In this document: in pieces, positions 1-33,424 of the stretch
Numbering within the stretch: the first letter of the stretch is position 1
How the letters are laid out: every line of letters starts with the position of its first letter
Origin: Cymodocea nodosa
Taxonomy: Eukaryota; Streptophyta; Magnoliopsida; Alismatales; Cymodoceaceae
Length of the DNA: 64,000 nt
Direction of reading: 5' to 3'
Assembly (NCBI GenBank): GCA_036874045.1
Contig: CM072344.1
Span: 14,914,501 to 14,978,500, forward strand
Translations under genes and position numbers: made by a program
The notes under the pieces: generated by a model
Told to the model about the DNA's origin: nothing
The model's database searches: none
Seen by the model: only the letters and a program-made list of their open reading frames with translations

Positions 1-738
1 TTAAAATCATCAAATAGAATTGTAGTTTTTGTTTCCATCATTCCTTTTTTTACTTGTAATACTTTTTCATTTTCATTTTTTTATTCACACATATATTTGG
101 ATGATTGTAAATGAGAACATTGCAAGCATTAGATTGAATATATTTATTGTAATTTACCTTTTATTGTTTCAAACATGCAGTACAACTAAGATCTTCTATT
201 TTTGAATTTTTTATTAAAGTGGAAGACATGAATAATCTAATTTTATATGAAATAAATGAAATACATAGATGATCTAAATGAAATAATGATATACTTAATT
301 AATTAATAAATGATATAATAAAGATCTAACTTTATAACAGGATTATTTGATTAATGTAAGTAATTAGTTCCTTGATTAATTACATTTTGACTAATTACTT
401 TAATTTATTACTTAACTTCATTAAAGATCAATTCAATTCTATTATATGTACAAATGCCTAAAATTTCATCATATTCAATTTTAAGTATACAAATAAGCCT
501 TTAGAATGTTATCACATGCAAGCATATTGCTTATGAATATTTGTGAGACGCAGGAAATGTGTAACAAAAAGGAGTTGGCTTAAACTTTTAGAGTATATTT
601 GTGTACTTAGAAAATAGTGGAAAACACTAAAAACAAAAATGATGAAAATTTTTCTGGATGTTTGAAAAACAAAAATGTTAGTGGTAGACGGTTGCCATTG
701 CTAAAGAACCTTTGCATTGATATGGAATTTATGCTTGT
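1..738. other. AT-rich intergenic DNA, no gene seen
   Basis: AT-rich sequence with no open frame of interest, no RNA gene and no recognisable transposon end. It lies outside the left arm of the inverted repeat and has no counterpart that I can see beyond the right arm. Confidence 0.6.
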
Positions 739-960
739 TTGTGGTTAGGTAGTGTTATTATTATGTGGAAGAAATATTTATTCTTTTTTATTATTTTCTT
801 CCATCTATTTTCTTCTCTTTTTCCTTTTTTCTTTCTTTCCCCTTCTTCCTTCTGCCTTTCCATTTATTATTTATATCATTTTTACTTCCATTTCCTTTGT
901 CATTCTTTTCCCTTATATTTTCCTTTCCCCCCCCCCCCCCCTCTTCTTCATCTTCTTCGC
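739..960. repeat. Polypyrimidine tract with a C15 run, outer edge of left repeat arm
   Basis: The + strand is almost pure T and C, with a run of 15 C at 927-941. The matching polypurine tract near 38,661-38,815 in the right arm has a 10-G run in the equivalent place. The inverted repeat therefore probably extends into this tract, but low complexity hides the exact end. The several overlapping short open frames here are products of composition, not genes. Confidence 0.7.
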
Positions 961-1812
961 CCGCTAGAAACCTTAATTTCATGCCAGTTGAGCACCGTCG
1001 CCAATAATGTCGGTCCACTCCATCCCTGAGTTGGAATCACTAAGGAAGATTGATGCCACACTGTTCGACCATGAGTAGAGTAGAATCTTCCCATCCCGCC
1101 TTGGATGACGAGTTAGGCACGATCGACATAGCAGATGGGCGGATAGACCACACAGGTTGCATGTGCTACCGTTCTAAGTCGCAATGCATTTCTTTTATTC
1201 GAAAGCACCACCCAAGCATCTATTTTTAATGCCATATACGCATTTGACACGAGGAGGATAATGAAATAAAAAGGTTTTGTCGACCAACTTCTGTAATTCA
1301 CATTCTTAGAAGCAAAGCGTACATGTGCCTCTATGCCTATTTCATTGTTTTATGGCATCTCTTGATAAATCATACCACCACTAGTCCAGTCGCATCCACC
1401 CTACTTATAACGAAAGTGGTGGTTGTGATGTTTTAAATTACCGTGTAATTTACGATATACCATGCATCTTAAAGAATACCACATCACGGATGCATATTTT
1501 GAAAGCACTTCATGGCCATTTCATTGTCAATTACATTAACAATACTTTAAGTTTTGCCATGAAGATTATTGTTTGGGCATGATAAGCATCTAGCTGGGTT
1601 TCAGCAGCATTTCGCTTCCATCTCTGTAGTTATTAGTTTACAAAGTCAGCTACCTCACATGCAACCATCCCCATTTTCTTACAATAGCTGGCACTATTCA
1701 CCTAGAATAATTGGAATCCACGCTGGAAGATCTATGTGATGTAAAGGTTTGAATATTTCTATCAAGGTAACATGAAGGCGAGAGATATGTATGTACAAGT
1801 GAATCAAAATCC

Positions 1813-1820
1813 TATAAATA
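1813..1820 (+). promoter_or_regulatory. TATA box of GRP1
   Basis: The sequence tataaata lies 100 bases before the GRP1 start codon. The same box occurs 100-105 bases before the start in all four GRP copies, in the shared context cctataaatacccc or close to it. Transcription should begin near 1845. Confidence 0.8.
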
Positions 1821-1912
1821 CCCCCTCATGGACTGCTAACAATCTCACGCAAGCAGCTAGCAAGTTATCGTGTCTTACGTAGTTGTTTGATCTCCTGAAT
1901 TGATTAAGAAGA

Positions 1913-2170
1913 ATGGCAGGTAGCCTTAAGTTTGCCGTAGTTGCAGTTCTGGTGGTCGTGCTCTGCGTGAGCATGGCCACTGCATCAAGGGAGCTCCAGG
2001 GGATGTATAGCAGCGTCAGAGCTGGAGGTGGCGGCGGCGGTGGTGGAGGTGGATATGGCCCGTTTGGTGGGGGATACGGATCTGGATATGGCTCCGGCTA
2101 TGGAAGTGCCACGTCGTCAATGGGAGGTTACCCGTACTACGGAGGATATCCCGGTTATCCCCGCTATTGA
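1913..2170 (+). CDS. Small secreted glycine-rich protein (GRP1)
   Basis: An 85-residue single-exon protein. Residues 1-25 form a clear signal peptide: a basic/polar start (MAGSLK), a hydrophobic core rich in V, A and L, and a small-residue cleavage region ending ATAS. The mature part opens with RELQGMYSSV, followed by a glycine run, repeated GSGYGSGYGS units and a Tyr/Pro/Gly tail. It should be exported to the apoplast or cell wall. Glycine-rich proteins of this kind are linked to walls and stress, but no specific role can be read from the sequence. The start is supported by the signal peptide and the TATA box 100 bases upstream. An aataaa lies at 2372-2377. Its twin is at 37,468-37,725 and two diverged relatives are at 53.3 and 59.8 kb. 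Confidence 0.88.
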   Translation: MAGSLKFAVVAVLVVVLCVSMATASRELQGMYSSVRAGGGGGGGGGGYGPFGGGYGSGYGSGYGSATSSMGGYPYYGGYPGYPRY

Positions 2171-2371
2171 TGATCGCGCACTTTAGATGGTGTCGACGAC
2201 GACACCATGCACGCATGGTTGGACATCATCAAGGACACTTAATAATAACATGCATGCAGCCACTTTCTATCCATATATGTCTGTAGCTAGCTTGGTGTGT
2301 GTTATTTTGTGTTCAGTATTAATGATCGATTGCAGCAGTAGAAGGCTTCTTATGTAATGTAATGTAGTTTG

Positions 2372-2377
2372 AATAAA
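2372..2377 (+). terminator. Polyadenylation signal of GRP1
   Basis: An aataaa hexamer about 200 bases after the GRP1 stop, preceded by T-rich sequence. The mirrored copy lies at about 37,257-37,262 for GRP2. Confidence 0.6.
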
Positions 2378-2399
2378 GCCAACCATGTTCGATTAGTTT

Positions 2400-3398
2400 G
2401 CAAGTATGAACTTTGTTTGAAATCAGGGCTGCCAATTATTATCTGCATGCTTTATGACATTTTCATGTTTAATTTGCATGTTTTTGGCAAACGCCGTAGC
2501 AGACTCTTAATTTGCTTGCTTACCGTAATCATGGTTGGCCCATCGAAAGAAAAATTTCAATCGCTTTATCATCTGATCACTAATTCATTCATAGAAGAAA
2601 ATATTATTTTTACGATGTAAATGAATCTATCCATAGAGACGTATGATGGCCTCGAGAACTTGTGCTTCTCGACAGACTTCCAAAATATTAATTTTTTAAG
2701 TGTATGTACCCCATTTACTCATCGGAGGCATCTCTTTTTATCATGGACTTTGTTTAAAGGATAAAAATTAACATTAATAACCGTTATGCTGCTAAAGTCG
2801 AGAAAAACCCTATGATGATTTTAACTTCTACATATTTAGATAATATCCGGTAATTGTGCACAAAGTGCTCAATCATGATGTGAGCGTATATATACCAAGC
2901 ATAATCAATCAAGTATCCTATGATGTAAAGAACTACACAACAAATTTTAAAAAAATCTTGAACAAAAAGGATCGAAAATCACAATGACAACAAAGATGAC
3001 GAGAGCAAATAGGTTAATGAAGTCAAAGTATTCTTTATTCCATGAAAGTGATTGAGGTGGTGGTGGTAGACCCAAACAATTAAACAAAGAAAAATATATT
3101 GAAATGCGTGAAGATCGAATGGAAGCAAATAGGTTTAGGGCAAGATAGGACATCCCAAAGGACTAAAGGAGCATGGAGACTACACCCGGAATCACACAAA
3201 AGAGCAGGCACGTAAAAGACAGACATGAATTTTTTTTTATTGGTTTCCTCAGACTTTTCGTCCATTCCGTTTGACATTCTGAGGTCCAAATTATGATTCC
3301 AGACCTGCACACCAGATCCAAGTCGGAGGTGCCACTCGAATCTACCATAACCGACCGTCGGGGAGTCACCGTAAGGGGCCGACGGAGGAGGTTGTATA
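2400..3398. other. Non-coding part of the left arm between GRP1 and the copia fossil
   Basis: No gene is visible. Short open frames here are not conserved as proteins between the arms beyond the general identity of the repeat. The first few hundred bases also resemble the regions 3' of GRP3 and GRP4 (for example a shared gaatgaattagtgatcag), so part of this is the ancestral GRP 3' flank. Confidence 0.6.
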
Positions 3399-4545
3399 TG
3401 TTAGGACCTTATGACTCATCAAAAGAGGGGGTGAACGGTGATTTATGTGTATTTTAATTTTTTTTTAATTTAATTAATTGATATTGAATAATCAACATGT
3501 ATAAGTATTAAGTAAGTAAATCATGTATAACAGAAATATAAATAAAAACACAAGAAAATTTTTAAATGTTTCATCAACTAAGCTAGTACAACCTTAATGT
3601 TTACTTAAGCTTCACTAAGTGTCTTAATACTTATAAACACTTGTTTTCAAGTCGAAATAAGAACTAATCATTTACTTGAATTTTCTGGTCGTAATTCTAA
3701 CCAACCACTCAGAAGTTTTTAAGTATAAACTTCAGTAAACCAACCTTTTGAGTTTTCAGGTTAAAACTTAAACCAACAACTTATAGCTTTCAGGTTGAAG
3801 TTATAAACAAAATGATCTTTCTTGGATCAGACTTTCAACACTTGGAGAGTTTTAAGAATCTTTGTGTAAATCCAACTTTTAATCTATTCTTTGTTGCGTT
3901 TAATCTAAATTGAACTTTCTTCTATAACGGTAGTTGATCTACAATATATATTGTATCTCTATATGTGATTGTATATGTAATCTCACTTGCTAGCTCTACC
4001 TGATATTAAATGATCTGTTTGTATTTATACTTGTAAGTCCAACGATCATATTTTCTCTTCAACAAATTGATTATGTTGTAATTGCTGAATTGCAAGTCTA
4101 AATATGGTAAGTTATTGTTCTATATATTATCCTTTATGTAGCCTTTTGATTTCCTTTGATTTTTGGATAGTTAGATTTATAACATTTCAAAAAAATCAAA
4201 TGGTTATCTTGTAATTCTTCGAAAAACTTGAATAGTTTACTTGTCATGTGATACTTTAAGTTATGTACATGAGTTTTTAAGTTCGGATAGTTGTAACTGT
4301 AACTTTTTGAAAAACTCAAATAATTATTATATAACTATCCAAAAAACTCAAATATTTATACTTCAAGGCTTTTGACTGCTCAACATGTGTTTCTTATTTA
4401 TATACTTACATAATTGAATGACTTAAGTTTCGAATAGTTAGACTTCCTAACTTTTCGATTTCCTTAGACTTTCAAATAGTAAGCCAACTACTCAGCCACT
4501 GTTTTGTTGATTTTTATCCAAATCTTTGTTACATTCAAGACCTAC
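3399..4545 (+). mobile_element. Ty1/copia LTR-like fossil (candidate)
   Basis: The segment starts near tgttaggacc, with an aaaagaggggg purine run at about 3420 of the kind seen as a polypurine tract in Sirevirus-like copia elements. The rest is AT-rich and non-coding. It contains several imperfect direct and inverted copies of a short motif around aactatttgagttttt between 4130 and 4360, as LTR promoter regions of this lineage often do. It runs straight into copia pol-like sequence. Exact ends are uncertain. The mirrored copy is about 35,080-36,225. Confidence 0.45.
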
Positions 4546-4800
4546 ATACGAGGACAGTTGGAGTTGGGAAGCACTTCAATGACCTTTACATCATCATTTC
4601 AGATGTTCCAACGAGGCAGGCCATGGCTACAATTTTCGCTAATGTCTAGCATAGGCGATTAGGCCACCCACTTGATGATTCTATTTTGTTGATTAGATTG
4701 CTATCTATCAGTAATGAAACAAACTTGTTGTGATGTATGCCACTTAGCTAAACTAAGACATTTGCCATTTCAAACATCTACCAATAGAAGTACTCAACCT
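4545..4800 (+). mobile_element. Ty1/copia pol fossil, pre-integrase region
   Basis: Reading on the + strand gives the copia pre-integrase signature: RRLGHPL, then CDVCHLAKLRHLPF, the zinc-binding segment that precedes the integrase core. Only this short piece is present and the element is broken. It abuts a gypsy fossil in the opposite orientation at about 4800, so two unrelated retroelement pieces have been joined. The mirrored copy is at about 34,824-35,080. Confidence 0.7.
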
Positions 4801-5700
4801 TGTAACGGTGGCTGCCTTGTAACTAGCGTTGGCTTGTGTAATGTGCTGGCGAACCTCATGTTGAATGTCGCAAATGGAGGAGATGAGGTCGTCAACATTG
4901 TGATGACCGGTAGAAGGAATGCAAGGTCGACCGGTTGGCTTGGGAGACGGCCATAAACAATAGTAAACGGTGCCTTACCTATGGTTCGGTTGACCATACT
5001 ATTATAAGCGAATTCAGCTTGTGCCAGAGATTGATCGCACTGTTTGGGACGAGCACCGGAAATTGCACGAAGTAGATTACCGAGAGTGCAATTGACGACT
5101 TCCGTTTGGCCGTCGGACTGAGGGTGGCAAGTGGTGCTGAAGTTAAGGGCGTTGTCGAGCTTACCCCAGAGTGTCTTCCATAAATGGGAAAGGAACCGGG
5201 TATCCCGGTCAGAGGTGATAGAGTGTGGAACGCCGTGGAGTCGAACAATCTCCTGGAAGAACAGGTTGGCGACATGGTGGTCATCTGTCGTCTTCTTGCA
5301 AGGCAGAAAATGGGCCATCTTCGAGAACCGATCAACAACTACGAGAATGGAGTCCATGCCCTTGCAAGTACGTGGAAGTCCTAGGATGAAGACATCCACC
5401 CATGATGCTTGTGGGATGGGAAGTGGTGTGTATAGATCCGTATTTTGACGTTGTCCTTTGGCACTTTGGCATGTGGGGGCAGCTACGGACAAATCGTTCG
5501 ACGTCACGCTTTAGTTGGGGCCAAAAGAAACGAGCTTCAAGGGCAGCCACCGTTTTGTCCCGTCCTGGGTGGCCTCAGCCTTGAAATAAGAAGCCTTCCT
5601 ACTACAAGAAGTCCTTCTCTGGTTGATGGTGGTGACATTTGTCCCATGACTGCTGGAAATCACTGTCAGTCTCATACAAGTCAAGGAGGCTGTCAAAACT
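4794..5700 (-). mobile_element. Ty3/gypsy integrase fossil
   Basis: The 237-residue open frame at 5507-4794 carries the retroviral-type integrase core. The D, D and E positions fall in [18 protein letters not shown] and HPQSDGQTE, and further gypsy features such as [10 protein letters not shown] are present. Sequence upstream on the same strand (to about 5700) resembles the zinc-binding region before the core. No LTR, protease or reverse transcriptase adjoins it, so this is a broken fragment. The copy in the right arm (about 33,930-34,830) is nearly identical, which means the insertion predates the inverted duplication. Confidence 0.88.
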
Positions 5701-6309
5701 AATTATTTCATGGCGTACAGTGATTAATAGGCAAGATCTTGTCCCTCGCCCACTCACACCGAAGATATAAATTTAATTAAACATGTACATGCAAAATATA
5801 AATTAGCATTTCCATTTGACTGCATTTGTTGATCTCGTGTATAAAAATGCGGCTCTCAGTTACTCTTGACAACACTAAGCCCATATTAATAACCACACGT
5901 AAAAATTTGATTCAATTTAATGTTTGAAACCATGGTTAATCATGATTTCAGTTTTTTTAGTGTCGACATTTGTGGCCGAATAATCATTTCACATTTCTTC
6001 TTCCTTTCAATTTTCATAATTACTCGTCGGTTTTTCCCTCAATTTATGTTTAAATATTCTGTGCAAGGTTCTTTCTTATAATTTAATATATTCAGTTATG
6101 TTTCATTTTTTCTTCCTGAACTTTGTATAGGACTTCTCTAAAAATAAAGGGTGTAGATTTTGCAAAGTGGTTTCACCTTGTAGTAGTTCAGACTTTGAAA
6201 TTTTTCATACATGTTCACCATATCACATATCACAATAAAATTGCATCATGACTTTTCAAGCATTGAATCTCACATATCATATCAAATATCCTACTCATAT
6301 CCATCTAAA
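5701..6309. other. Inner end of left arm and unique spacer
   Basis: 5701-6060 matches the right arm closely. 6061-6309 has no counterpart that I can find elsewhere in the window. No gene is seen. Confidence 0.6.
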
Positions 6310-6893
6310 AATACCCTCATAAGAAGGTGAAGATGAAACAACAGGAGCTAAATTGGTGGAGTGTGGAAATTGATTATATCAGTGCAGATAAAAAGAAAAC
6401 AGCTTAAATGGCTAAACCAAACTAATACCAGCTGCTAAATATCAATCAATCAATGACAGATTCAGACAAAATGCTAGCCTCCATTATTGACCACTTCAAT
6501 TTTTTTATGTTCATACATCAACCTCTCAAGCCTAACTAACACTGTTGCTATATATCAATCAATCAATGGTAGATCTAGACAAAATGCTAGCCTCCACTAT
6601 TGACCGCTGCAATTTTTTTATGTAAGCCAGAAGACGTCACGAGAATTATTAAAAAAATCACCACTGCTTAGAATTCTCGCCTCCCTTTGTTGTTAGTACT
6701 TGCTCTATCTTCAAATTATGTAATGTTATCTTGCTTCGCTCTTCCATCAGTCATCCCTTCTTCATCCACGAAACCCATCCTTCTTGTTTTCTTTCTTTCT
6801 TATCATGCTTCATCCTTCCATCTATCCTCTTCTTTCTTTCTTGCAAGAACAAATCAATCCTCATCTTCAGTTCTCACCTTGCTCGCATAAGCA
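6310..6893 (+). promoter_or_regulatory. CNL1 upstream region, direct repeat of the CNL2 upstream region
   Basis: From aataccctcat at about 6310 to the start codon, this matches the sequence before CNL2 (about 25,417-26,000) in the same orientation. Within it, a block of about 110 bases is tandemly repeated (about 6431-6540 and 6541-6622), each copy containing atcaatcaatcaatg and acaaaatgctagcctcc. CNL2 has the same internal repeat. CNL3 keeps only the last 120 or so bases before its start codon. Confidence 0.75.
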
Positions 6894-9800
6894 ATGGGGA
6901 ATTTCATCCCCTGCAACTGCAACTTTGAGGTTGTGGAATGCATGAAGATGTTCGAGTTGGATAAGACTATACGTTTCTGTTTGTGCCCAAGGAGAGATAG
7001 AGATAAGCTTGAAGATGAGGTACAACATCTTCGAAGAATGAAAGATGATGTCGACAATACAATCTCCTCTCAACGACAAATACAGCCAGGAACCGAGTGC
7101 AAGGTAAATCAAAAATCGTTTTATAGTATATTTCTTACAAAGTTATGCACCTTAATTCTTAGATTTTTCACAATAAACACATACCAATTTCTTGAGCTCG
7201 TAATACCATATTCTAATCATCTATTTTTTTATAAACAAATTTAACTAAAGCTGGCAGTTACAAGATGGATGAAAAGAGTAGAAGAATTGAATACAGAAGT
7301 AACAGAACTTCTTGGATCATTACAAGAGAGGAGTTGTTCATTTCTATCTAACTATAAGCTTGGAAAGAAGGTTAGCAGGATGCTTAAAAGAGCTCAAAGA
7401 TTGGCTACAGAAAGAGAGAAATTTGGTGACAGCCTCGTTAGTTCATATCGAAGAAGGGATAGAGATAATCTAAGACGAGAGATGCAAGAATTGCAAGAGA
7501 TGAAAGATGATGTCAACAAAATGGTCATCGAACAACAACGGATAGAACCAAGAACTGAGTGCAAGGTAAATTGCAAATATGTTGTCATATATTTCTCACA
7601 AAGTTATATATGTTAACTCTTAGAATTTCACATTAAGTACATACAAAATACCTCATCTTGTAATAACATGTTCTAATCATCTTTTTTTTTATAAACAAAT
7701 TTAAATAAAGCTGGAGGTTGGAAGATGGATGCAAAGAGTAGAAAAATTGAATACAGAAGTAACAGGACTTCTTAATTCAGTGGAAGAGACGAGTAGCTCA
7801 TTTGTATCTAATGATGAGCTAGGAAAAGACATTGACACGATGCTTGAAAGAGTTCGAAGATTGTATACAGAAAAAAAGGATTTTCCTGACAGCCTCATTA
7901 ATCCAAGAGTAATTGAAGATGTTCCATATCCAGTACCAAAATTCTACAGTAACAGAGAAGAAACATTGTCTGAAATTCTCCATCATCTGCAAGATGATGC
8001 TGTAAAAATGGTAGGAATTTATGGGATGGGAGGTGTAGGGAAGACCACCATCTTAAAGAAAATCCAAAAAGAGATGAAGACAACCGATTGGAGGCATGTG
8101 TTTGAATCAGTGGTCTGGATCACAGTTTCAAAAGTTGTTGATGTCACTGACATCCAAAAGCAAATAGCTAAGCAGCTAAAAATTACCCCAACATCTGATC
8201 AACGAGGAATTGAAGAAGAAGAAGAAAGGGCTCAAACTCTACGTACTGCTTTGATGGACAAGAAGTTGTTATTGCTCATGGACGACATATGGGATGTTCT
8301 AGATTTAAAAAAGATTGGAATTCCAATGCCAACTATTGATAGTGACACGATTAAAATTGCATTTACAACAAGAGATGAGAAAGTCTGTATTGACATGGCT
8401 TCTCAAAAACGAGTCATGGTGAGACCAATGAATGAGGAAGACTCATTGAAACTCTTCGGAAAGAATTTGGATTCAGAAGAAATTCTAAAAGATGCCATTG
8501 GATATTATGCAGAGAAAATTGTCGACAAATGCGATGGATTACCATTGGATATTATCACCATTGCAAGGGTAATGACAAAATGCAAAATGCCTCATGAATG
8601 GCGAGAAATGTTTGAAAATCTTGATCACTCTCTTCATCAAGAAATTCCAAATATGGAAAATGTGATGAGGATTTTAAAATTCAGTTTTGACAGGTTGGAA
8701 AGTGATAAGCTTCGATCTTGCCTTTTATATTGCTGCCTTTATCCAGAGGATGACAACATTGATAAAAAACATCTCATTGAGCAGTGGGTTGGAGAAGGAT
8801 TGGTAGATTCCCATGGGGAAGGACAAAACATCATCAACATACTTACATCTGCTTGCCTTCTTGAAAGAGGTGGATATTCTTCTGATGTGGTTCGAGAGAT
8901 GTGGTTCGAGAGATGGCACTTTGGCTTACAAATGGATCAAATGATCTAGATAATTATTTTAAAGTGTACGTCACATCAGCTGCAAATAAATTGCATAACT
9001 ATGGCGGATGGTTTATGGCCAAGAGGATCTCTCTCATGAAATGTGATTTGAAAAGTTTACCTGATTCCAAAGATGATAATTGTCCCTTTCTTGTTACACT
9101 ATTATTAAATCGAAACCCGAGTTTCCATAAATTCTCCACAGTCAATTTCTTCAAGTTCATGCCGTCACTCTGTGTTTTGGATCTAAGCCATACGAAACTA
9201 ATGGAGATCCCAAGGTCAATCAAGTTTTTGGTTAATTTACAGTATCTCAATCTATCTTGGACGGAGATTGAGTGTCTTCCTGTTGAAGTAGGTAGTCTGA
9301 AAAAACTAAAGACATTAAACCTAGAGAACCCATGGAAACTTAAAAGGGTTCTGCAAGGAGACAACATTGAGTTGGTGAATTTACGAACACTATATTTGTT
9401 ACATTCTGAGTATGACTTTGAATTAGCACACAATGTAGAAAATCAACCACAGCTCATGTTCAAGGATTTGAAGGAATTGAAGCATCTCGAAGATCTTAGT
9501 ATAGATGTTAAGTCAGGAAGACATTTTCAGATACTTGTTAATAATCCTACCCTTTCAGCAGCTATAACTAAAGTAATCCTTTGGTTTTTGGATTGCAAAG
9601 ATGATGATATGAATTCAGCAATTTCTAAATTCTCAAAACTGCTTGAACTCAAAGTACATTTTTGTTCTAACATAAGGAAGATAGAATTTTTTCGAACTCA
9701 ACCATTCTGCCTTGAGGAACTTGAGTTGATTGGTCTATGGATTTTGAGCATTTCTATCAGAAAAACTGTTAATCTCACGTGTCTTATGGAAAATCTTTGT

Positions 9801-10292
9801 ACTGTGAAAATTAGATATTGTTCAAGGTTGAGGGATGTGACGTGGACGGCAGAACTTCCAAACTTAGAATATCTTTTGTTGTGTGGATGTGATGGAATGG
9901 AAACACTTGTGGTTGGAGATGACGAAGGACAAGAAGGGAGACTGACAAGAACAAATAAGTATAAAGAAAACAAGGAAGAATATCAAAATTATTACTTCCC
10001 CAAGTTGGAGAGTTTAAATCTTTGGAGTATGCAGAATTTGGAGAGCATTTCCAAGTTGACATTCCCATTTCTCTTTCCTTCCTTGAAATGGCTCGATGTA
10101 CAAATGTGTCTCAAACTACAGAACATTTGTTTGGGAAGTGATAGTGCCAAAGGTATGGAATTCATAAGTGGAGAGCAGGAATGGTGGAATAGATTGAAGT
10201 GGCAGGATGAAGACACAAAGTATATTTTCTTTCCTCATTTTCAACCAAGGGATGAAGACTGGGATGTATATATAAAGAAAAGCACAGAATGA
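6894..10292 (+). pseudogene. CNL1: RPS2/RPS5-type CC-NB-ARC-LRR gene, frameshifted and mosaic
   Basis: Exon 1 is 6894-7103 (MGNFIPCNCNFEVVEC start, possible N-terminal acylation), exon 2 is 7251-7565 and exon 3 begins at 7711. Introns of 147 and 145 bases have GT and AG ends and lie in phase 0. Exon 2 arose from a tandem duplication of about 460 bp running from mid exon 1 to mid exon 3, giving a doubled coiled-coil region. The NB-ARC has P-loop GMGGVGKTT, kinase-2 LLLLMDDIW and RNBS-B IAFTTRDE; the usual GLPLA reads GLPLD. At 8887-8914 the 14-mer gtggttcgagagat is duplicated, shifting the frame. About six codons including the MH of MHD are missing just before it. The LRR part reads on in another frame to 10,292. 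Pseudogene status is likely; a truncated NB-ARC product ending at 8949 is possible. Confidence 0.85.
6996..7917 (+). repeat. Tandem duplication within the CNL1 coiled-coil exons (period about 460 bp)
   Basis: gatagagataa occurs at 6996 and again at 7458. The acceptor-exon junctions (taaag then ctg) fall at 7251 and 7711, 460 bases apart. Each unit spans the second half of exon 1, an intron and the first part of the CC-encoding exon. The donor gtaaat and the acceptor are kept in both units, so the extra exon 2 (105 codons) is in frame and could be spliced in. Confidence 0.85.
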
Positions 10293-11699: not shown

Positions 11700-11989
11700 C
11701 ATGTAAAGCCAATGCTCAAAATTGCTACTTCTCCAAGTTGGTGTATTTACAACTTCGAGGTTTGCGGAGTTTGAAGAGCATTTCCAAGTTGACATTTCCA
11801 TTACTCTTTCCTTCCTTGAAAAGACTTAAGGTAAGAAATTGTCTCAAACTAGAGAACATCTGTTTGGGACGTGATAGTGCCGAAGACATGAGATTCATAA
11901 GTGGACGGCAAGAATGGTGGAATGGATTGAAGTGGCAGGATGAAGACATAAAGTCTATTTTCTTTCTTCATTTTGAACCATTGCAATAA
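11700..11989 (+). pseudogene. Orphan 3' end of a CNL gene (last LRRs)
   Basis: The 11,738-11,989 frame encodes the C-terminal end of the CNL family: SLKSISKLTFPLLFPSLKRL, then CLKLENICLGRDSAEDM and QEWWNGLKWQDED, ending shortly after. It matches the last 85 or so residues of CNL1 and CNL2. It has no NB-ARC or start of its own and lies 1.4 kb after CNL1 on the same strand. It is the remnant of a fourth CNL copy. CNL3 lacks exactly this part of the protein. Confidence 0.85.
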
Positions 11990-12695
11990 AGACATGGATG
12001 CAGATATAAAGAAAATTACAGAATGATTTCATCTTGAAAAATAAAAATAAATATCGGCTTAACCGAACATGTTCGGTCAAACAGTTTAGTACCGTATTTT
12101 TAAAATAATATATATATATATATAATCTAAAAAAAGGCAACTTATGTTGGCCTGATAAAACACACGAAGCTGATCTGACCATCGGAAAACAAACAACGTA
12201 GACTATGATTATTAAAAAAAAAAATTGAACGCGAACAATGAAAAACATAATTGCAACGAAAGCTATATATGTCGCGGTCTGACTGGTGTTCATAGGATAA
12301 CTGATGACGCTGTCAGAGGTGGTCAGAAGGTCTTCGGTTTGCACCATTTGTATTCTGATTTAGTCTGGTTTGCAGGCACCTGACCGCCAGATGAAATATT
12401 GGGTTAGGTTTTTGTTAAAAAAGAAAAAAGCTCTATGAAAATTTTGGTTGGTTGGACAGAATGAATGTTATATATATATGATATATAATTATCTTTAAAA
12501 TCATATATACATAATTATAATAAAAGATATATTAAAAATAAAAATAATGAGCGGTTGAACCGAAGTATCATGGGTTCGACCGATCTTTTAAAAGATTATA
12601 AATTTATAGGTTGAACAGAAATGACTGCATTTCAACCGTTTTCTACAAAAAATTAATATAATAATAGTAATAAATTTTCGACTCAAGACACTTCC
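11990..12695. other. AT-rich, transposon-like spacer
   Basis: No gene. It contains (TA)n near 12,106-12,122 and short mirrored motifs (ggttgaaccg, ttaaccgaac) of the kind found in small non-autonomous DNA transposons. I could not define an element. Confidence 0.4.
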
Positions 12696-17499: not shown

Positions 17500-19680
17500 C
17501 ACAAGCAGCGAGCCGTTTCGTTGAGAAATTTTTGCGGTCTCTGGTCCAATATTTGACCTCCGGCACGCGGCTGATCTCCGACATTCTCTTCTATCTCCCG
17601 CCTTGCACGTCTTCAACTACTGTTGGTTAAGTATCAACTTATAAGTTGGGTAAATATAGCTTCCATCGATCGTACGTTTGTTTCAATTAATTCAAATTCT
17701 CTACACGTTGATTTCACCCTTCCTAATTGGTAAACGTTTTTGAATGGAATTAAATCGGGCAGCATCCATGTCCCGAACCCATTCAGCCACTCTTGAATGA
17801 TTCAAGATCATTTTTATGTGATCCATCCATGGTCTCGTGAAATTTGAGTAGATGGAACGATCAACCACGTATGTAAATCCGCACGCAACTCTTCGATTAT
17901 TCCTCAGGACCACATATTTCTTCCATTCCATCCATTATTTATTTAGGAATCTTGGATATATATGTCGATAACTCAACAACCTGATGAAGTACGTTTATTA
18001 TTCACACCCACGTATAAACAACTTCTGAATCTCCACCGGCACCGGAATCAGGTTACGAGTATTATTAGATATATGTAACGAAATAATGAAACAGAAAATA
18101 CCGTGAATGTAGTTTGAAATATACAAAATACGGTATGTCTTAATAGTATATATCTTGTTCCCACGTGGACTAAACTGAAGTAAGATTAACATATATAGAA
18201 ATGGATCCCTATGTTTAGTTATGATCAATGGGTTGGAAAATAAGATCTTCTAAATTCAGAGAATATAGGATTTTCTTTCTTATATAATCTATTGATTTGT
18301 TGAAATTTATGACAGTCAAATATTTCATTTTTCTTCAGACGACCGAGTGACGGTCTCATTCATCCTTGTGAATGAAGTCCATAACTTGTCCAACAGGAAA
18401 AGCACAAGGATGCGATTTACGGTGAGAAGACTGGTGGACATATTCGGCGCATCGTCCGTCTTAATTTCATCTATACTTCACAAAAATTTCCCATTGTGCT
18501 CAAAGTATTATATATAGGTCAAATCAGGTGCTTGGAAATTTGACCATAAAATATTGGAATGCATGCATGATCTGGACTCAGTCAAACAGTTTTTCTATTT
18601 TCAACTACAACTTGATTCAAAGGTTTTACAAATAACTACATTTTGTAGAAAAAAGAATTGCAAAATATTTGCTGATAATAAATTCTTTCTTAAATGTATC
18701 GTTTTTGTTGTTTTAAATAATAACGATGTCGAAAATTTGTGCTATAGATTCAAATCTTAACTCTTAACAAGAACGAATGAGTTATTAAGCTTCCCAGAGA
18801 TAATTGAAGGGTCGGAACGTACGTTACCAGTTCAAGACCGGCTTACGTGTGCTCCTCATTATCAATAAAATACCTGCAATGTGAAGTACGTTCTTATTCT
18901 CATCCATGTAAGGAAGGGTATTAGAAAATTTTCATACATGCCATCAAATAATCTTACCGTATTTGTAACTGTTACTTGGCGCAGAGTGCAAAGATCGTTT
19001 CTTCAACAATCTGAATGTACCATAATTCAGAATCTTAATAAAAATTATAAATATCACTATTGTAATTGACTAAATTATTACAGTTAATTGTTATATTCTG
19101 TTGCCTGGAACTTTGCGGAGGTTATGGTTGAGGCACGCAAGTCCATCGGTCCACAACAATGTTCAGAAATGTGGATACCGGGATTGACTGGCAGCACGAG
19201 AGTTACTCAACGTGCACGTCTTCCTTGCTGGGTGAGACGAGACAACTATTTTAGTTGAATTGCTCTCTTCTCTGTCATTTGATATGCTGCCACCGTCTTC
19301 TTCGTTAGTTCTTGAATTAGTTACTGTTATTGTATCCAATGGATGGCTTAGTCGCTCTTCTTTTTGTTACTTGAAATGCTAAAATGCGTCTCGTTCTTGT
19401 AATCTCTCTTAGCTTTAATTGATGCAACCACATGCCTTTTGCTTCGTTCATAAAGTAATTGGTTGAAATAAACATTTTCAACAACATTATGCGCTATTGA
19501 TGTCTAAGATGATTTACATGCACGAATGATTCCACAGGAAATTTTCAGACACAAAGGAAGCATATAGCTAGCCTAAACCAAGGAAACACAAGTGACAATC
19601 TATTTCATCTAATTCCTTTCATCTACCCCACGGCCTAGTGTAGTTACAAAAGTTGCCTTTATGCTTTCCTTACGAACCTT
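17500..19680. other. Spacer with no supported gene
   Basis: Mostly AT-rich. A short exon-like stretch follows ttttcttcag at about 18,340 and reads through to 18,520, but matches nothing I know. No transposon ends are recognised. Confidence 0.45.
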
Positions 19681-19689
19681 CACAGTTCT

Positions 19690-21870
19690 AGGTTAAATAC
19701 ATGACATCTTCGACTCGTGGTAGTGCTCGGCGAAACACGGTGGACGACGGTGGTGGTGGGATTGGGGGATCCGATTGTGGGTCTTTTCTTGTTTTCGGTG
19801 ATTTCTTGGATGATTATTTCCCTTTAACCACTCCTTATTTATACAGCATTGGGAGCATTACAAATTTCTCCACAATCTCTACCCCTACATCTTTCCTTAA
19901 TTAAATTTGTATTTCAAATTCAAATTGGTCTTCTTCACCAATTCCTTTATCTCCCACTTGATCATGAATATCAATTATATTTTTCTATACGACAAATATT
20001 ATATGACATCATTTCTGCATTCTACTCTCACTGTTTGTAGGTAGCATATATACATAATTTTTCTTGCTCTCACTATCTACGAGAAAATTTTAATGTTCCA
20101 CTCCAACTATTCATGAAAATATTCTTTATTTCCGTTATCTATGGAAATATTCTTTAATCTCATTAAATTTACAAACTTAATGTCTTTTTTCATTGAAATT
20201 CCTTTTGTCAAAGGATAAACAATCATGTCTTTTGTGGAAATATAACTTAATTTTATTTCCCTTTTTCCTACAATATTACAAATGTAACGATAATGTATAT
20301 TTATATGCTATCTTTTTATTGTATTTACACCACTATGTATAAGACTTATTGTTGCTTGATTATCATAATACATTTCTATTAGACTATTCACCAAGTTGAG
20401 ATTTAAATTATTTATAGATATCTTGATTCAAACAGCATGTGATACAACTACATTACAGACAATATATTTAGCTTCTTATGTGTATTTCGCTACACATTCT
20501 TACTTTTTACTATCTCAAGATATAACTACACTTATAAAGATGAATGAATGTTCTAAAGTGGTCTTCTCATCATCTTTGTCACCACCTAGATCTGCATTTG
20601 TATAACCAAGCATTTTAAGTCAACTTATGGTGTAAAGTTCAATTCACATATTTCATTATTCTTTGGATAACTTCTCAATGTTTTGTTTCATGATTACTTT
20701 AATACCCACTAACAATACTTACTATATATGCCAAGTTAGATCTTGTACACAACATAGCATACATTAAACTTCTAACTACTTAAGCATAAAGTGCTCTTAA
20801 AGGTTCCTTCCCCTTTTTAGGACACTAGTCTTTACTCAATTTCTCCCTAAAACATAAGATGTAGGGGCTAAGGAATAATTGTCCATTCTAGACTTTTTTA
20901 GCATTGTACACAAGTATGTTTCTTGATTTATATTCAATATTCTAGATTTCCTATCTCTAAAGATTTGAATTCCAAGAACATAGGATGTTTCCCCTATGTC
21001 CATCTTAAATCTTCTGCTAAGTTCTTCCTTTATTTCATTTAACATATCAATGTTATTTTTGGTAAGTAACATATTATCCATGTATAAGTATAATATAATA
21101 AATTTACTTCCACTTTTGTTGATAAATCACAATAATCTAATCTATTTGAAATAAATCTCAATCTCACAATTATATCATGAAATTTGTGATACCATTGTCT
21201 AGATACTTGTTTCAAACCATATTAACCTTTTTAATTTGTACACTTTTTCTTCATGTACTTCCACCTGAAATCCCTTAAGCTATGATATGTAGATTTTTTC
21301 TTGCAAGTCTACATTTAGAAATGAAGTTTTTACATTCATTTGATCTAATTTTAAATCTAAATGTGCAACTATAACCAATATAATTCTTATAGATGTAGAC
21401 TTAGTCACTAGAGAATATGTTTCAAAAAAATCAATTCCCAATTTTTGTGTATAACCTTTAGCAATTAATTAGGTCTTATATTTAACAATAGACCCCTCAA
21501 CTTTTAACTTTTTCTAGAATTTCCATTTCATTTTATAGTTTTTCTTCCTTCAAGTAAATCACATAATTCTCATACTTAATTCCTTTTTATAGAATCAATC
21601 TCATCATTCATGGCTTCCAACCATAAATCTTTTCCGTGAGATTCAACGATATCCTTATATGTCACATGTTCTACGTGATTTTCCTTCATATCTATTAATA
21701 AACAAGAAATCTCACAAAAATACAAATGATAATCATTCATCCATGTAGACTGATATCTCATCTTTTTGTTACTAACAAGTACATTCGGTTCTTCATGTTC
21801 TCCATTCATATTAGTTTCAACATTTTCATTTATAGTCTCATTTTTGGATTCCTTCCACAATTTTCATGGG
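19690..21870 (-). mobile_element. Ty1/copia fossil: reverse transcriptase and RNase H region, 3' end
   Basis: On the - strand, 21,860-21,576 matches the region just before the reverse transcriptase (DLWLEAMNDEIDSIKRN). 21,081-20,836 matches the later RT (IGETSYVLGIQIFRDR, then LNINQETYL). 20,600-20,380 resembles the RNase H part. gatcaagtgggag on the - strand at about 19,950-19,962 is a typical copia polypurine tract, so the 3' LTR should lie below it. The element is heavily broken and the 5' half is not recognisable. It looks old. Confidence 0.8.
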
Positions 21871-22689
21871 TTCATTTTCATTTCTACCAGTAATTTCCAT
21901 AGGCTCATTTCTACCATTAATTTTTGACCATGTTAATAAAAATCTTAAGCATGGCAAACGTTTCCAATTTTATATGTCATCATTTTCCCATTCCCACCAT
22001 TATACTTTCCATAGCGTTGATACACTTGCGTTTGCACATTTATTGAAGGATGTTGTGTTCTGGTTGCTCTCTTTATGCCATATCTTCCTTGACATTTGCC
22101 TCTTAGTTATTGCTTTTAGCTCAAGCATTTGTCCAGTGATCACCTTTGCATTGGTCATCTTTTGTCTGTCTTTTGAAAATAGTAATACAGTTTTCTCCAA
22201 ATCTAAGTCACTTGTCATTTCTCCTTTCTAGTGCTTGTACAGTTTTCTTGTTATGGTAGTTGTTATGACATAGCCATCTGAAGCTTAGCAATTCTTGTCA
22301 CCACAAAGACACCTAGGATTGAATTTGTCGAATATCTTCTAACCAAGCTATATGGCTTCCATAAAATAAGGACCTCCATTGATGGTTTGATTTGTGTATC
22401 TCAAAAATGCCATGTGGTTTGAGCAAGCCATAGCATTAACTTGATGATGAAGTTCCATCCACTTCATTAGCTTTCTGTCGTAGAGCAAAACTGGTCACCA
22501 CTACTTACCTTATCCCCTTTTCTCCCCCTTCCCCTCCTACACAAGAAAAGATGTGGGGTACCACTTCCCATGTTCGATCATTAGGAATACATTGATGAGC
22601 TCTGAGCATGCAGTACTCCCATCCCACAAAATACATCGTCATATGGAAAGCTTTAACTCTCCTAGGAATGGTCAAACAGTTGGCGTCGC

Positions 22690-25060: not shown

Positions 25061-25114
25061 TTGCAAAAAGCAAATCAATCCTCATCTTTAGTTCTCACCT
25101 CGCTCTCATAAGTC

Positions 25115-26000: not shown

Positions 26001-28895
26001 ATGGGGAACATCCCCTGCACCATTGACATCGTGAAATGCATCGAAAAGTTCAAGTTGGATACTGCTACATCTTTCTATTTCTGCCGTAAGAAATATGTTA
26101 ACGAGCTTAAATCAGAGATGGAAGCTTTGCGAAGGTTCAAAGATCGCGTCAAGGGAATGCTCAACGTTGAAACACCAAGAACCGTGCATGAGGTAATTAG
26201 TTGAAAACATGTATATTTCTCTCATTAATAATGTTGTACGTGCATGCTAATTCTTAGCCTTTTCATGTTAAGCAAGCACTTACAGAATTTCTTGAGCTTG
26301 TAGTAATACCATGTTCTAATCATCTACTTCTCATAAACAAATTTAAAGGAGGACTTTAGACACTGGATGCATAAGGTTGAAGATTTGGAGGAGCAAGTAA
26401 CAGGTCTTCTTAACTCATTAGAACAGAGGAGTTGTTGGCTTCTGTCTTGCTATAGCCTTGCAATAGAGGTCAACGAGATGCTTGATAGTGTTCGAAGATT
26501 GGATGGAGAAAAACACAGATTTGGTGACATCCAGTTTAATCAGGAACGAATTGTAAAGGTTCCATATCACGACACAAAATTGATTGGCAGGGACGAAGCA
26601 TTGTCTGAAATTGTTTGCCATCTAGAAGATGTTAATACAAAAATGGTGGGGCTTTTTGGGATGGGAGGTGTTGGGAAGACCGCCATCTTAAAAAAAATCA
26701 AACGAGAAATGATGAAAAACAAGAGGCATGACTTCCAATCAGTGGTCTGGATCACAGTGTCAAAGGATGTCAATGTCACCAGCATCCAAAACCAAATAAC
26801 CGAGCAGTTGCATATTTCCTTGCCACCTCAAGGTGGAAGCGAAGAAGAACGGCAAAGGGCTCAAACTCTACATGAGGCTCTCATGAATAAGAGGTTGTTG
26901 TTGCTCATGGATGACATATGGGAATTTCTAAACTTAGAAAGGGTTGGAATTCCAATACCAACTATTGATTGTGATAGGATTAAGATTGCATTTACGACAA
27001 GAGATGAGCAAGTTTGTATTGACATGAGTTCTCAAAAAAGAGTCTGGGTGAAAACATTGAACGAGGAAGACTCATTGAAACTCTTTCGAAAGGTTTCAGA
27101 TTCAGAAAAAATTCTACAAGATGCTAGATTCTTGAATTATGCAAAGCAAATTGTCAAGAAATGTGATGGACTGCCATTGGCTATTGTCACCATTGGAAGG
27201 GCAATGGCAAATCAGAAAAAGATTGATGATTGGGCCAACATGATCAGTTTGCTCAATGACTCTTTCCACAAAATTCACGGTGTGAATAACATGCTGAAGA
27301 TCTTAAAAGTCAGTTTTGATAAGTTAGAGAATGATGCATTACGATCGTGCCTTTTATATTGCTGCCTTTATCCTGAGGATTGCGAGATTTATATAAAAGA
27401 TCTCATCAATCAATGGGCTGCTGAAGGATTGGTAGAAATTCAAAGTGAAGGACAAGATGTTATCAACAAGCTTAAGTCTGCTTGCCTCCTTGAAAGTGGT
27501 CGATATTTTGATTATAAAGTGACAATGCATGATTTAGTTCGAGAGATGGCACTCTGGCTTACAAATGGATCCAATGATCCATATAATTATTTTAAAGTTT
27601 ATGACAAATCTGCTGCAAGTAATTTAAATAGCTATGATGGATGGGATAAGGCCAAGAGAATATCTCTCATGAATTGTGATTTGAAAACTTTACCTGATTC
27701 CAAGGTTCCTTATTGTCCCAATCTTGTTACGTTATCATTATCTAAGAATTGGAGTTTCCATGAATTCTCTACAGTGAATTTCTTCAAGTTCATGCCGTTA
27801 CTCTGTGTTTTGGATCTAAGGTGTACAAGTATAAAGGAGATCCCAAGATCAATCAAGTCTTTAGTTAATTTACAATATCTCGATCTAAATTGGACAGAGA
27901 TTGAGTGTCTTCCTGTGGAAGTGGGTAGTTTGAAGAAACTAAAGACATTAAACCTAGGGAGAACATATTCCCTTAAAAGGGTCCCGCAGAAAGCCATCAT
28001 TGAGTTGGTGAATTTACGAGAGCTCTATTTGCATGGTTCTCAGTGTGACTTAAATCAACAAAGAATATGGCATCCTTGGTATAAACAATCACAGCTCATG
28101 TTCAAGGATTTGGAAAAATTGAAGCATCTCGAACAACTTAGTATAAATGTTGAGTCAGAAAGTCATTTCGAGATACTTGTTAATAATCCTACCCTTTCAG
28201 CAATTATAACTAGAGTAATACTTCAATATCTTGATTGCAATAACGATGATTTGATGTCAGCAATTTTTAAACTCTCAAAATTGCATCGTCTCCAAATACG
28301 CAGTTGTTCTAATACAAGGAAGTTAGAATTTTTTGGAACTCAACCATTTCATTTTAGGGATCTTCGATTGTATGATCTAAACATTTCGAGCATCGTTGTG
28401 AGGGACAACAGAATTATGCAAAATCTAAGTGCAGTGGCAATTATCAATTGTTCGATGTTGAAGGATGTGACGTGGACGACAGAACTTGCAAGCTTAGAAC
28501 GTCTTCACTTGTCTAATTGTGATGGAATGAAAACACTTGTGGTGGGAGATGATGAAGCAGAAGAAGGAAGAGTGACAAGAACAAGTACTTATAAAGAAGA
28601 TAATGAAGAACATCAAAATTGCTACTTCCCCAAGTTGGCGTATTTAAATCTTCGGTCGTTGCAGAGTTTGGAGAGCATTTCCCAGTTGACATCTCCATTA
28701 CCCTTTCCTTCCTTGAAATGGCTCATTGTAGATATGTGTCCCAAACTACAGAACATCTGTTTGGGACGTGATAGTGCCAAAGACATGACATCCATACATG
28801 GAGAGCAGGAATGGTGGGATGGATTGAAGTGGCAGGATGAAGACACAAAGTCTACCTTCCTTCCTCGTTTTCAACCAAGGGAAGATTTCAACTAG
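26001..28895 (+). CDS. CNL2: intact CC-NB-ARC-LRR immune receptor, RPS2/RPS5 type
   Basis: Exon 1 is 26,001-26,192, the intron is 26,193-26,348 (gtaatt...aaag) and exon 2 is 26,349-28,895, giving about 912 residues. The N-terminus MGNIPCTID with Gly2 and Cys6 could be acylated, as in RPS5, for plasma-membrane attachment. A coiled coil follows, then NB-ARC: P-loop GMGGVGKTAILKK, RNBS-A region VVWITVSKD, kinase-2 LLLLMDDIW, RNBS-B IKIAFTTRDE, GLPLA, RNBS-D CLLYCCLYPED and MHD (MHDLVREMALWL). About a dozen LRRs complete the protein, and the tail ends WWDGLKWQDEDTKS. All switch motifs are present, so this is the one CNL here likely to work as an NLR sensor. Only the splice is inferred. Length is normal for the family. 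Confidence 0.92.
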
Positions 28896-30746: not shown

Positions 30747-33424
30747 CTACATAAATAAGGGGAAAAAATAATAATTAGAGTGAATAATACGACAACTTGA
30801 CATATAAGAATAGTACAAAAATAGACTTTTTAAGCTTGGAAGTTCTGCCATCCACGTCACATCCTTCAACATTCGACATACGGAGATGTCCACGTAACTT
30901 AGATTTTGCATAAGACACGTGAGATTAGTGGTTTTTCTGACAGAAATGGAACTCGTGACAACTGTTGCTTCCTTGTCCCCCACAATGATCTTCGAAATAC
31001 TTAGACAAGATAACTTAAGTCCCTCAAGGCAGAATGGTTGAGTTCCAAAAAATTCTATCTTCCTTAAATTAGAACATTCGCGGATAAAAAGATAATGCAA
31101 TTTTGAGAATTTTGAAATTGCTGACATCAAATCATCATCATTGCAATCCAAATTCATGAGTAATACTTTAGTTATTGCTGCCGAAAGGGTAGGATTATTA
31201 ACAAGTATCTGGAAATGACTTTGCGATTCAACATGTATACCAAGATCTTTGAGATTCTTCATTTTTTCCAAATCCTTGAACATAAGCTGAGATTGTTCTT
31301 CCTGATTATAAATGTTGCTATCACTCCCAATCATTTGTTGGTTCTCTACCGATTTCAAAGAATAGTGAGATCCAAACATATTTAATGTTTGTAAATTCAC
31401 CAACTTGGTGATAGCTTTTTGTGGGATCTTTTGAAGGTAACGTGTCTCTCCAAGGTTTAATGTCCTTAGTGTCATTAGCTCACCCACTTCCATGGGAAGA
31501 CTCTCAATTGGCGTGAAAAATAGATTGAGAAATTGTAAATTAGCCAAATACTTGATTGAGCTTGGAATCTCCTTTAACCTTGTAAAGCTTAGATCCAAAA
31601 CACAGAGTAACGGCATGAACTTGAAGAAATTGACTGTGGAGAATTTACGGAAACTCCGATTGTTATATAATAATAATGTAACAAGCTTGGGACAATAAGG
31701 AACCTTGGAATCAGGTAAACTTTTCAAATCACAATTCATGAGAGATATCCTCTTGGCCATATCCCATCCATCATAGCTATGCAAATTATTGGCAGTTGAT
31801 GTGTCGTACACTTTAAAATAATTATTTGGATCATATGATTCATTTGTAAGCCAGAGTGTCATCTCTCGAACCATATCATGCATTGAAACATAAACATCAA
31901 AATATCCACCACTTTCAAGGAGGCAAGCAGACGTAAGTGTGTTGATGATGTTTTGTCCTTCCCTATGGGAATCTACCAATCCTTCTCCAACCCACTGATC
32001 AATGAGACGTTCTATAATAATCTTGTCATCCTCTAGATAAAGGCAGCAATATAAAAGGCAAGATCGAAGCTTATCACTTTCCAACCTATCGAAACTGAAT
32101 TTTAAAATCTTCATCACATTTTCCATATCTGGAATTTCTTCATGAAGAGAGTGATTAAGATTTTCAATCATTTCTTTCCATTCACGAAGTATTCCGCAAT
32201 TTGTCATTGCACTTGCAATAGTGATAATAGCCAATGGTAATCCATCACATTTCTTGACAATTTGCTCTGCATAATTCAAGAATCTATCATCTTGTAGAAT
32301 TTCTTCTGAATCTAAATTCTTTCCAAAGAGTTTCAATGAGTCTTCGTCATTCATTGGTCTCACCATGACACGTTTTTGAGAAGCCATGGCATTACAGACT
32401 TTCGCCTTTCTTGTTGTAAATGCAATCTTAATTGTATCACAATCAATAGTTGGCATTGGAATTCCGATCTCGTTTAAATCCAGATCGTCCCATATGTTGT
32501 CTATGAGCAATAACAACTTCTTGTCCATCAGAGCAGTACGTAGAGTTCGAGCCCTTTGTTCTTCTTCTTCAATTCCTCGTTGATCAGATATTAAGCGAAT
32601 GTTTAACTCGTCAGCTATTTGCTTTTGGATGCCAGTGACATCAACAACTTTTGAAACTGTGATCCAGACCACTGATTCAAACACATGCCTCCAATCGGTT
32701 GTCTTCGTCTCTTTTTGGATTTTCTTTAAGATGGTGGTCTTCCCTACTCCTCCCATCCCATAAATTCCTACCATTTTTACAACATCTATTTGCAGATAAT
32801 AGAGAATTTCAGACAATGTTTCCTCTCTGTTACTGTAGAATGTTGGTACTGGATATGGAACATCTTCAATTACTATTGGATTAATGAGGCTACCACTAAA
32901 ATTCTCTTTTTCTATAGCCAATCTTCTAACTCTTTTAAGCATCCTGCTAACCTCCTTTCCAAGTTTATAGTTAGATCGAAATGAGCAACTCCTCTGTTCT
33001 AGTGAATTAAGAAGTCTTGTTACTTTTGTATTCAATTCTTCCATTTTTTGCATCCATCTTCTAACGTTCACCTTTAGTTAAATTTGTTCATAAAAATAGA
33101 TGATTAGAACATGGTATTACAAGATTAGGTATTTTTCATGTACTTAATGTGAAATTCTAAGAATTAACATGCATAACTTTATGAGAAATATACGACAACA
33201 TATTTTCAACTTACCTTGCACTCGGTTCTTGGTTGTATTCGTCGTTGATGGCTGACCATTTGGTTGACATCATCTTTCATCTGTCGCAAATCTTCCATCT
33301 CCTGTCTTAGATTTTCTCCATCCCTTCTTGGGCACAAACAAAAGCATATGGTCTTATCCAACTGGAATATCTTGATGCATTCCACAACCTCAAAGTTGCA
33401 GGTGCAGGGGATGGAATTCCCCAT
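30747..33424 (-). CDS. CNL3: CC-NB-ARC-LRR gene with truncated LRR and altered kinase-2
   Basis: On the - strand, exon 1 is 33,424-33,215 (MGNSIPCTCNFEVVEC start; Gly2, Cys7, Cys9), the intron is 33,214-33,072 (gtaagt...ctaaag) and exon 2 is 33,071-30,747, giving about 844 residues. Exon 2 begins at a GTG that follows the acceptor, not at a start codon. NB-ARC motifs: GMGGVGKTT, VVWITVSK, kinase-2 LLLLIDNIW (CNL1 and CNL2 have MDDIW, so the second Asp is Asn, codon 32,496-32,498), RNBS-B IAFTTRKAK, GLPLA and MHD (MHDMVREMTLWL). The LRR stops after SLKSLFLYY and a short unrelated tail, lacking the final 100 or so residues found in CNL2. The frame is open, so it may be expressed, but Mg/ATP handling and the LRR end are altered. 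Confidence 0.85.

Follow-up and report, generated by a model that had tools for sequence, protein, structure and literature searches.

Mosaic structure of a clustered CC-NB-ARC-LRR gene family in Cymodocea nodosa and a probable exchange tract in CNL1 or its twin

The window analysed in this study is a 64,000-nucleotide stretch of plant DNA from Cymodocea nodosa (contig CM072344.1, hereafter C16; C16:14914501-14978500; GC 36%), the host genome comprising 374.6 Mb in 28 contigs. Three nucleotide-binding leucine-rich repeat receptor (NLR) genes are located in the window, namely, CNL1 and CNL2 on the forward strand and CNL3 on the reverse strand (Table 1). NB-ARC (PF00931) was matched in all three genes (Pfam, E 5e-55 to 3.9e-52) and leucine-rich repeat (LRR) Pfam families were matched in their C-terminal halves, which is the domain order of a CNL; the coiled-coil (CC) N-terminus was assigned by position and likeness among family members. 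The sequence ATGCATGAT at the end of NB-ARC, which we take to be the MHD motif, is present in CNL2, CNL3 and 17 of the 21 aligned sequences that cover this position; it is missing from CNL1 and from a near-identical twin of CNL1 on C16, and is altered in g13677m and g15246p. The 3′ end of CNL3 differs, its homology to CNL1 and CNL2 being lost near 30815. A first-pass annotation had described CNL1 as a patchwork, CNL3-like except for a CNL2-like stretch at 8900-9420, and had read this pattern as the signature of gene conversion with a tract near 0.5 kb. The peptide matches quoted for it do exist in the CNL1, CNL2 and CNL3 translations.

Table 1. Coordinates of the genes and features discussed, given as positions of the window.
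Feature	Position	Strand	Details
CNL1 5′ part	6894..8946	+	exons 6894-7103, 7251-7565, 7711-8946; stop 8944-8946
Duplicated coiled-coil unit, tandem	6989..7902	+	copies 6989-7440, 7451-7902
Frameshift scar	8879..8915	+	MHD codons lost; 14-bp tandem repeat 8888-8901, 8902-8915
CNL1 LRR half	8886..10292	+	other frame open, 468 codons, no internal stop; LRR Pfam families
Candidate exchange tract	9068..9263	+	30/44 CNL1-twin differences within 196 bp
CNL2-like stretch of the first-pass annotation	9209..9420	+	CNL3 differs from CNL1 and CNL2
CNL2	26001..28895	+	exons 26001-26192, ~26349-28895; intact frame, 912 aa
CNL3	30747..33424	-	exons 33424-33215, 33071-30747; 844 aa
Inverted-duplication arm	934..6060 with 33564-38686		BLAST 97.2% over 5.15 kb

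The exon borders of CNL1 were placed by GT/AG and reading frame. Its 5′ frame encodes 587 aa, consisting of the duplicated coiled-coil unit and NB-ARC (Pfam E 5e-55). A single open frame from the coiled coil to the LRRs was not found in CNL1; the frame shifts at 8888-8915 and ends at the stop at 8944-8946. At this scar, a 14-bp tandem duplication adjoins a deletion, and the net length change is -4 nt relative to CNL2 and CNL3. Of the 21 aligned sequences reaching across this position, two carry the scar, namely, CNL1 and its twin, and the 19 others are without it (g14858p ends before the site and is not counted). An intron removing the frameshift was rejected, as the possible GT-AG pairs in the repeat lie only a few bases apart when inspected by eye, which is not enough for an intron. 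Judged from its sequence, CNL1 probably makes no full receptor and would have lost its function, and a putative protein with two coiled-coil units and NB-ARC without the MHD motif is possible. Changes in the MHD motif often render NLRs autoactive, and the frameshift may for this reason have silenced a harmful version of the receptor. The double coiled-coil unit is common to CNL1, the twin, g14906m (C16:14908699-14904900, -) and g15266m (C16:15268400-15267000, -). Both the double unit of g14906m and its 883-aa NB-ARC/LRR frame look open, so this may be an intact CC-CC-NB-ARC-LRR gene. No wording for duplicated or tandem coiled coils was met in a literature search that covered the matching papers only in part.

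The CNL1 twin lies at C16:14859340-14862264, 62 kb upstream, and is equivalent to 6536-9462 of the window. The two copies differ at 44 positions, distributed as 11 in 6536-7804, 0 in 7805-9067, 30 in 9068-9263 and 3 in 9264-9462. When the differences were placed at random (n = 20,000), a 196-bp window contained 14 of them at the most, as against the 30 observed. A bounded block of differences between otherwise near-identical copies, as left by a conversion tract, is thus present in the first LRRs. The twin carries the identical scar (C16:14861690), so the break would predate the duplication that produced CNL1 and the twin. Within the tract, the proportions of synonymous and nonsynonymous differences between the copies are 0.160 (pS) and 0.146 (pN). 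At 16 of the 30 differing sites, both bases occur in other family members, a pattern that is easier to reconcile with copied family variation than with new mutations. The twin itself breaks off at the 9462 equivalent, after which a copy of the 5734-6957 region follows in inverted orientation, and g14858p, truncated at the 8690 equivalent, runs straight into the beginning of the twin (C16:14857828-14863482).

The three genes are part of a large family. At least 129 NB-ARC matches were found in the genome, and only C16 members were aligned. A 251-bp piece of the CNL1 LRR gave 22 scored matches (best candidates), all of them within 13.68-15.27 Mb of C16. The alignment held 22 sequences, namely, the three genes and 19 further C16 members; the windowed identities given here were computed with 19 sequences, before three more were added. 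Over the 7711-8760 equivalents, CNL2 shares 98-100% identity with g15254p and g14885p, and from 8911 onward the identity is 75-90%. The change is sharp, with four differences between CNL2 and g15254p in 26349-27500 and a dense run starting at 27501 (CNL1-equivalent 8872). In its LRR half, CNL2 is nearest to g13843m or g13719p in most windows, to CNL3 (0.90) in 9061-9210 and to g14906m (0.90, 0.97) near the 3′ end. CNL3 is nearest to g14906m and g15262p over 9211-9810 (0.88-0.98), and g15266m, where comparable, reaches 0.90 in the first window of this range. For CNL1 over 9211-9510, the nearest sequence is the twin (0.95, 0.94), followed by g13684p and g13729p (0.86-0.87), which are ~1.2 Mb away; g13843m is equally near in 9211-9360 (0.86) and falls to 0.74 in the following window, and CNL2 stands at 0.83 and 0.79.

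The three genes were compared over 2,585 aligned columns, of which 374 group CNL1 with CNL3, 157 CNL1 with CNL2 and 177 CNL2 with CNL3. Segmentation of the 696 informative sites (scar excluded) confirmed that relationships shift along the gene, the best single break falling at 8846/8847 with a log-likelihood gain of 45.8 against a permutation maximum of 9.3 (n = 200). The segmentation with the best Bayesian information criterion has three breaks, at 6916/6924, 8994/8998 and 9202/9209. Distances for CNL1-CNL2, CNL1-CNL3 and CNL2-CNL3 are, respectively, 0.258, 0.111 and 0.252 in 7711-8846; 0.175, 0.135 and 0.098 in 8847-9208; 0.190, 0.299 and 0.280 in 9209-9420; and 0.222, 0.229 and 0.231 in 9421-9884. 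Across 8847, the CNL1-CNL3 distance is stable (p 0.24), and the CNL2-CNL3 (p 4e-10) and CNL1-CNL2 (p 0.0019) distances drop; therefore, CNL2 moves nearer to both others. Across 9209, the CNL1-CNL2 distance is stable (p 0.73) and both CNL3 distances increase (p 8e-6, 8e-8). None of the three distances differs significantly between 9209-9420 and its right flank 9421-9884 (p 0.36, 0.066, 0.21). Synonymous distances change in a consistent direction with wider errors, both across 8847 (CNL2-CNL3 p 0.005, CNL1-CNL2 0.26, CNL1-CNL3 0.21) and across 9209 (CNL2-CNL3 p 0.013, CNL1-CNL3 0.07, CNL1-CNL2 0.62).

These comparisons retain part of the patchwork described for CNL1 and change its outline. The CNL2-like stretch narrows to 9209-9420, with its core at 9209-9327, and does not take in 8847-9208, where 20 sites join CNL1 with CNL3, 7 join CNL1 with CNL2 and 32 join CNL2 with CNL3. 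The return of CNL1 to CNL3-like sequence after 9420 was not observed, the corresponding counts in 9421-9884 being 39, 42 and 38 (CNL1=CNL3, CNL1=CNL2, CNL2=CNL3). The RKT-NLTCLM segment offered as a CNL3 marker is an indel: of 17 scorable members, 10 have it and 7 lack it (5 of 22 could not be scored), so it does not mark CNL3. Two breakpoints had been expected in CNL1, near 8880-8915 and 9420-9450. The first falls on the CNL1 frameshift scar, which that annotation had overlooked, along with the 3′ loss of homology in CNL3 and the duplicated coiled-coil unit of CNL1. The switches recovered here lie in other genes, the left (8846/8847) in CNL2 and the right (9202/9209) in CNL3. In a 3SEQ-like test, sites at which CNL1 agrees with CNL2 and differs from CNL3 formed a tract at 9209-9516 (permutation p 0.00005). 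The test is also significant when CNL3 or CNL2 is treated as recombinant (p 0.00005 and 0.006), so CNL1 is not singled out. 

Conflict along the gene was also evident across the family. Segment trees, PHI-like (pairwise homoplasy index) and GENECONV-like tests were performed on 15 full-length members, the twin not being among the 15 of the GENECONV-like test; constrained approximately unbiased (AU) tests used 19 of the 22 members (g14858p, g14902p and g15246p omitted). A single topology along the gene, which the first-pass annotation had named as the pattern that would speak against recombination, does not hold, as each of the four segments rejects the trees of the others (AU p <=0.0074) and the whole-gene tree (AU p <=0.017). 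The PHI-like test gave p 0.001, and 31 GENECONV-like fragments exceeded the global 5% threshold. Those of CNL1 are 8115-8229 with g15262p, 9528-9575 with g15254p and 9532-9575 with g14885p; CNL2 and CNL3 share 9056-9088. Among the 31 fragments from the 15 members, none joins CNL1 with CNL2 or CNL1 with CNL3. A clade of CNL1 with g13684p and g13729p is allowed in all three LRR stretches compared (AU p 0.146, 0.301, 0.228) and rejected in NB-ARC (0.006). An exclusive CNL1+CNL3 pair in NB-ARC is rejected by AU (p 0.010; Shimodaira-Hasegawa (SH) test 0.513), so that CNL3, too, is no clear sole parent. CNL2 groups with CNL3, g14906m and g15262p with bootstrap 61 in 8847-9208, and 77 in 8913-9208 with g15266m added.

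We consider that CNL1, CNL2 and CNL3 belong to a mosaic CNL family whose members have exchanged segments on C16, with an additional tract of ~0.2 kb acquired by CNL1 or its twin; we give this reading a probability of roughly 0.85. The sequence comparisons give good support to exchange among NLR paralogues, and to this extent the interpretation of the earlier annotation is partly supported and its observation of a patchwork partly confirmed. The family to which the three genes belong is large, with the LRR segment limited to 13.68-15.27 Mb of C16. Its members keep swapping segments, some short and some long, presumably by ectopic gene conversion or by unequal crossing-over, and every gene is a mosaic as a result. 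Members in direct and inverted orientation could pair out of register in repair or meiosis, with stretches copied or ends swapped, and each LRR region would have been assembled over time out of several lineages; the exchange itself is seen in the sequence, and the repair pathway is inferred. At ~8850-9000, a switch in CNL2 or its near-identical relatives would have brought it nearer to CNL3. At ~9209, CNL3 has the LRR type common to g14906m, g15262p and g15266m, and CNL1 retains a type close to g13684p and g13729p. The pattern first noticed in CNL1 would then be the joint effect of three mosaic genes. The frameshift presumably came first and the duplication into CNL1 and the twin followed; after it, one copy would have taken the tract at 9068-9263 from a relative not found in the assembly.

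Several observations weigh against this reading. A donor of the tract was not found in the whole-genome search. Among the 22 scored matches, the CNL1 version of the tract is best matched by the twin itself (88%), with the next at 86%; the twin version is matched at best at 89% overall and at 95% over its first 106 bp, by g14902p (C16:14904074-14904179). The CNL1 version carries 11 private bases in 196 (9 of them in 9068-9130) and is for this reason not a simple copy of any sampled member. The PHI-like, 3SEQ-like and GENECONV-like tests are our own implementations, not the published programs. The SH test leaves 3 of the 16 tree comparisons unrejected, namely, the whole-gene tree for NB-ARC (0.449) and for 9209-9462 (0.31), and the 9209-9462 tree for 9463-9884 (0.111). 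Convergent selection and old shared variation could also add to the conflict among segments.

The private bases and the missing donor would be expected if the CNL1-twin tract were clustered mutation in one copy and not copied sequence. The twin version has 3 private bases in 196, and the flanks have 6 of 155 in both copies on one side and 6 and 7 of 199 on the other. Clustered mutation is nevertheless very improbable in our view, given the 16 of 30 sites at which both bases occur elsewhere in the family and the agreement of the twin version with g14902p at 58 of the 63 sites in 9068-9130. Copying of ~0.5 kb (8900-9420) from CNL2 into an otherwise CNL3-like CNL1, as first proposed, would explain the clustering of CNL1=CNL2 sites in 9209-9516, the peptide match WTEIECLPVEVGSLKKLKTL and a CNL1-CNL2 distance of 0.109 in 9209-9327, against 0.235 to the right (p 0.0018, stretch picked post hoc). 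A silent-site CNL1=CNL2 tract at 9281-9875 (p 0.03) also agrees with it, and one three-sequence run was found at 9264-9282 (p 0.041, uncorrected for three pairs). Scans for low CNL1-CNL2 distance gave p 0.377, 0.077, 0.249 and 0.025 for windows of 100, 120, 150 and 200. However, 8847-9208 is not CNL2-like, 9421-9884 is not CNL3-like, and g13684p and g13729p are nearer to CNL1 than CNL2 is in 9211-9510. A CNL1+CNL2 clade is rejected by AU in 8913-9420 (p 0.0125) and 9209-9420 (p 0.007), although SH leaves it unrejected in both (0.148 and 0.075); in 8913-9208 it is unrejected (AU p 0.10), and CNL1+CNL3 is also allowed there (0.206). As no GENECONV-like fragment joins CNL1 to CNL2 and silent sites in 9209-9327 show no CNL1-CNL2 closeness, this specific event is largely refuted and we regard it as very improbable.

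The likeness of CNL1 and CNL2 in 9209-9327 is confined to replacement sites, with dN 0.079 for this pair against 0.266 and 0.267 for the others, and dS 0.374 (CNL1-CNL2), 0.387 (CNL1-CNL3) and 0.448 (CNL2-CNL3), all with wide intervals over 40 codons. This is what unequal selection on the LRRs without any exchange, with CNL3 diversifying and leaving CNL1 and CNL2 alike, would produce. Such selection accounts for this stretch alone; it fails on the 30 differences in 196 bp between near-identical twins, on the sharp CNL2-g15254p change at 27501 and on the conflicting segment trees. As the sole cause it was rejected by the full-family recombination tests, and we hold it to be very improbable. Within the favoured reading of a mosaic, exchanging family, CNL1 and the twin might also act as a silent cassette, which would keep taking in LRR segments after loss of function and could pass them to live members. 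The LRR half (468 codons in CNL1) has stayed open though out of frame, and on this view the unmatched 9068-9130 segment would be one that was lost or is absent from the haplotype and is kept only in the broken gene. We consider the cassette unlikely.

The cluster resembles Type I resistance-gene clusters and is a new instance of a kind already known, exchange with relatives being common in genes of this sort. In the tomato I2 report (PMC4161772), which uses the terms Type I and Type II resistance genes, 154 exchanges among 76 homologues are given, with tracts of 77-3,022 bp (mean 533 bp). The C16 cluster is similar to those described there in its chimeric members and in relationships that are unstable along the gene; its extensive chimeric structure is borne out by the AU rejections and, in part, not by SH. 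It differs in being known from one genome, allelic relationships between genotypes lying outside the comparison. The report on the coffee SH3 CC-NBS-LRR cluster (PMC3113787) describes a comparable case, with gene conversion among paralogues in direct as well as inverted orientation and with short tracts, including 139 and 200 nucleotides. The C16 family is larger (22 scored LRR matches over 1.6 Mb) and has, in addition, a frameshifted twin pair. The best solved-structure match of the CNL2 exon-2 frame is a deposited NB-ARC domain-containing protein (9h2l_A; E 4.6e-88, 826 residues), which is distant from CNL2, and its function is not transferable. A comparison of three genes in a large recombining family misplaces recipient, donor and tract length, and all three shifted here when the full family was used. 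In the twin pair, a tract in the first LRRs can be measured cleanly, and whether broken NLR genes join in exchange can be put to the test.

Several duplications surround the genes. The inverted arms upstream of CNL1 and CNL3 differ by 88 mismatches in 5032 aligned columns (98.25% identity), and the genes are ~82% identical. The differences are patchy, with a mismatch-free run of 678 bp (p 0.0003), and parts of the arms look as if homogenised later. A complete retrotransposon pair behind the 97% inverted flank was rejected, with no direct repeat >78 nt reported in 1-6900; an integrase fragment is present in the flank (Pfam). The spacer between the convergent CNL2 and CNL3 (29609-30367) is 97.9% identical to that between the convergent g14902p and g14906m (C16:14904176-14904928), and the genes flanking these spacers are far less alike (CNL3-g14906m 91%, CNL2-g14902p 76%). 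The promoter and first exon of CNL2 are tandemly doubled (25045-25422 and 25933-26310, 86% identical). A 5.6-kb block at 18578-24172, part of a large and partly rearranged cluster duplication, is 98.9% identical to C16:14879495-14885090, just upstream of g14885p. Pieces of further family members are located at 11716-12036 (+) and 23318-23541 (-). Four related block copies (1547-2767, 36871-38091, 52776-53824 and 59268-60381) contain a small glycine-rich open frame without a Pfam match (1904-2170 in the first copy).

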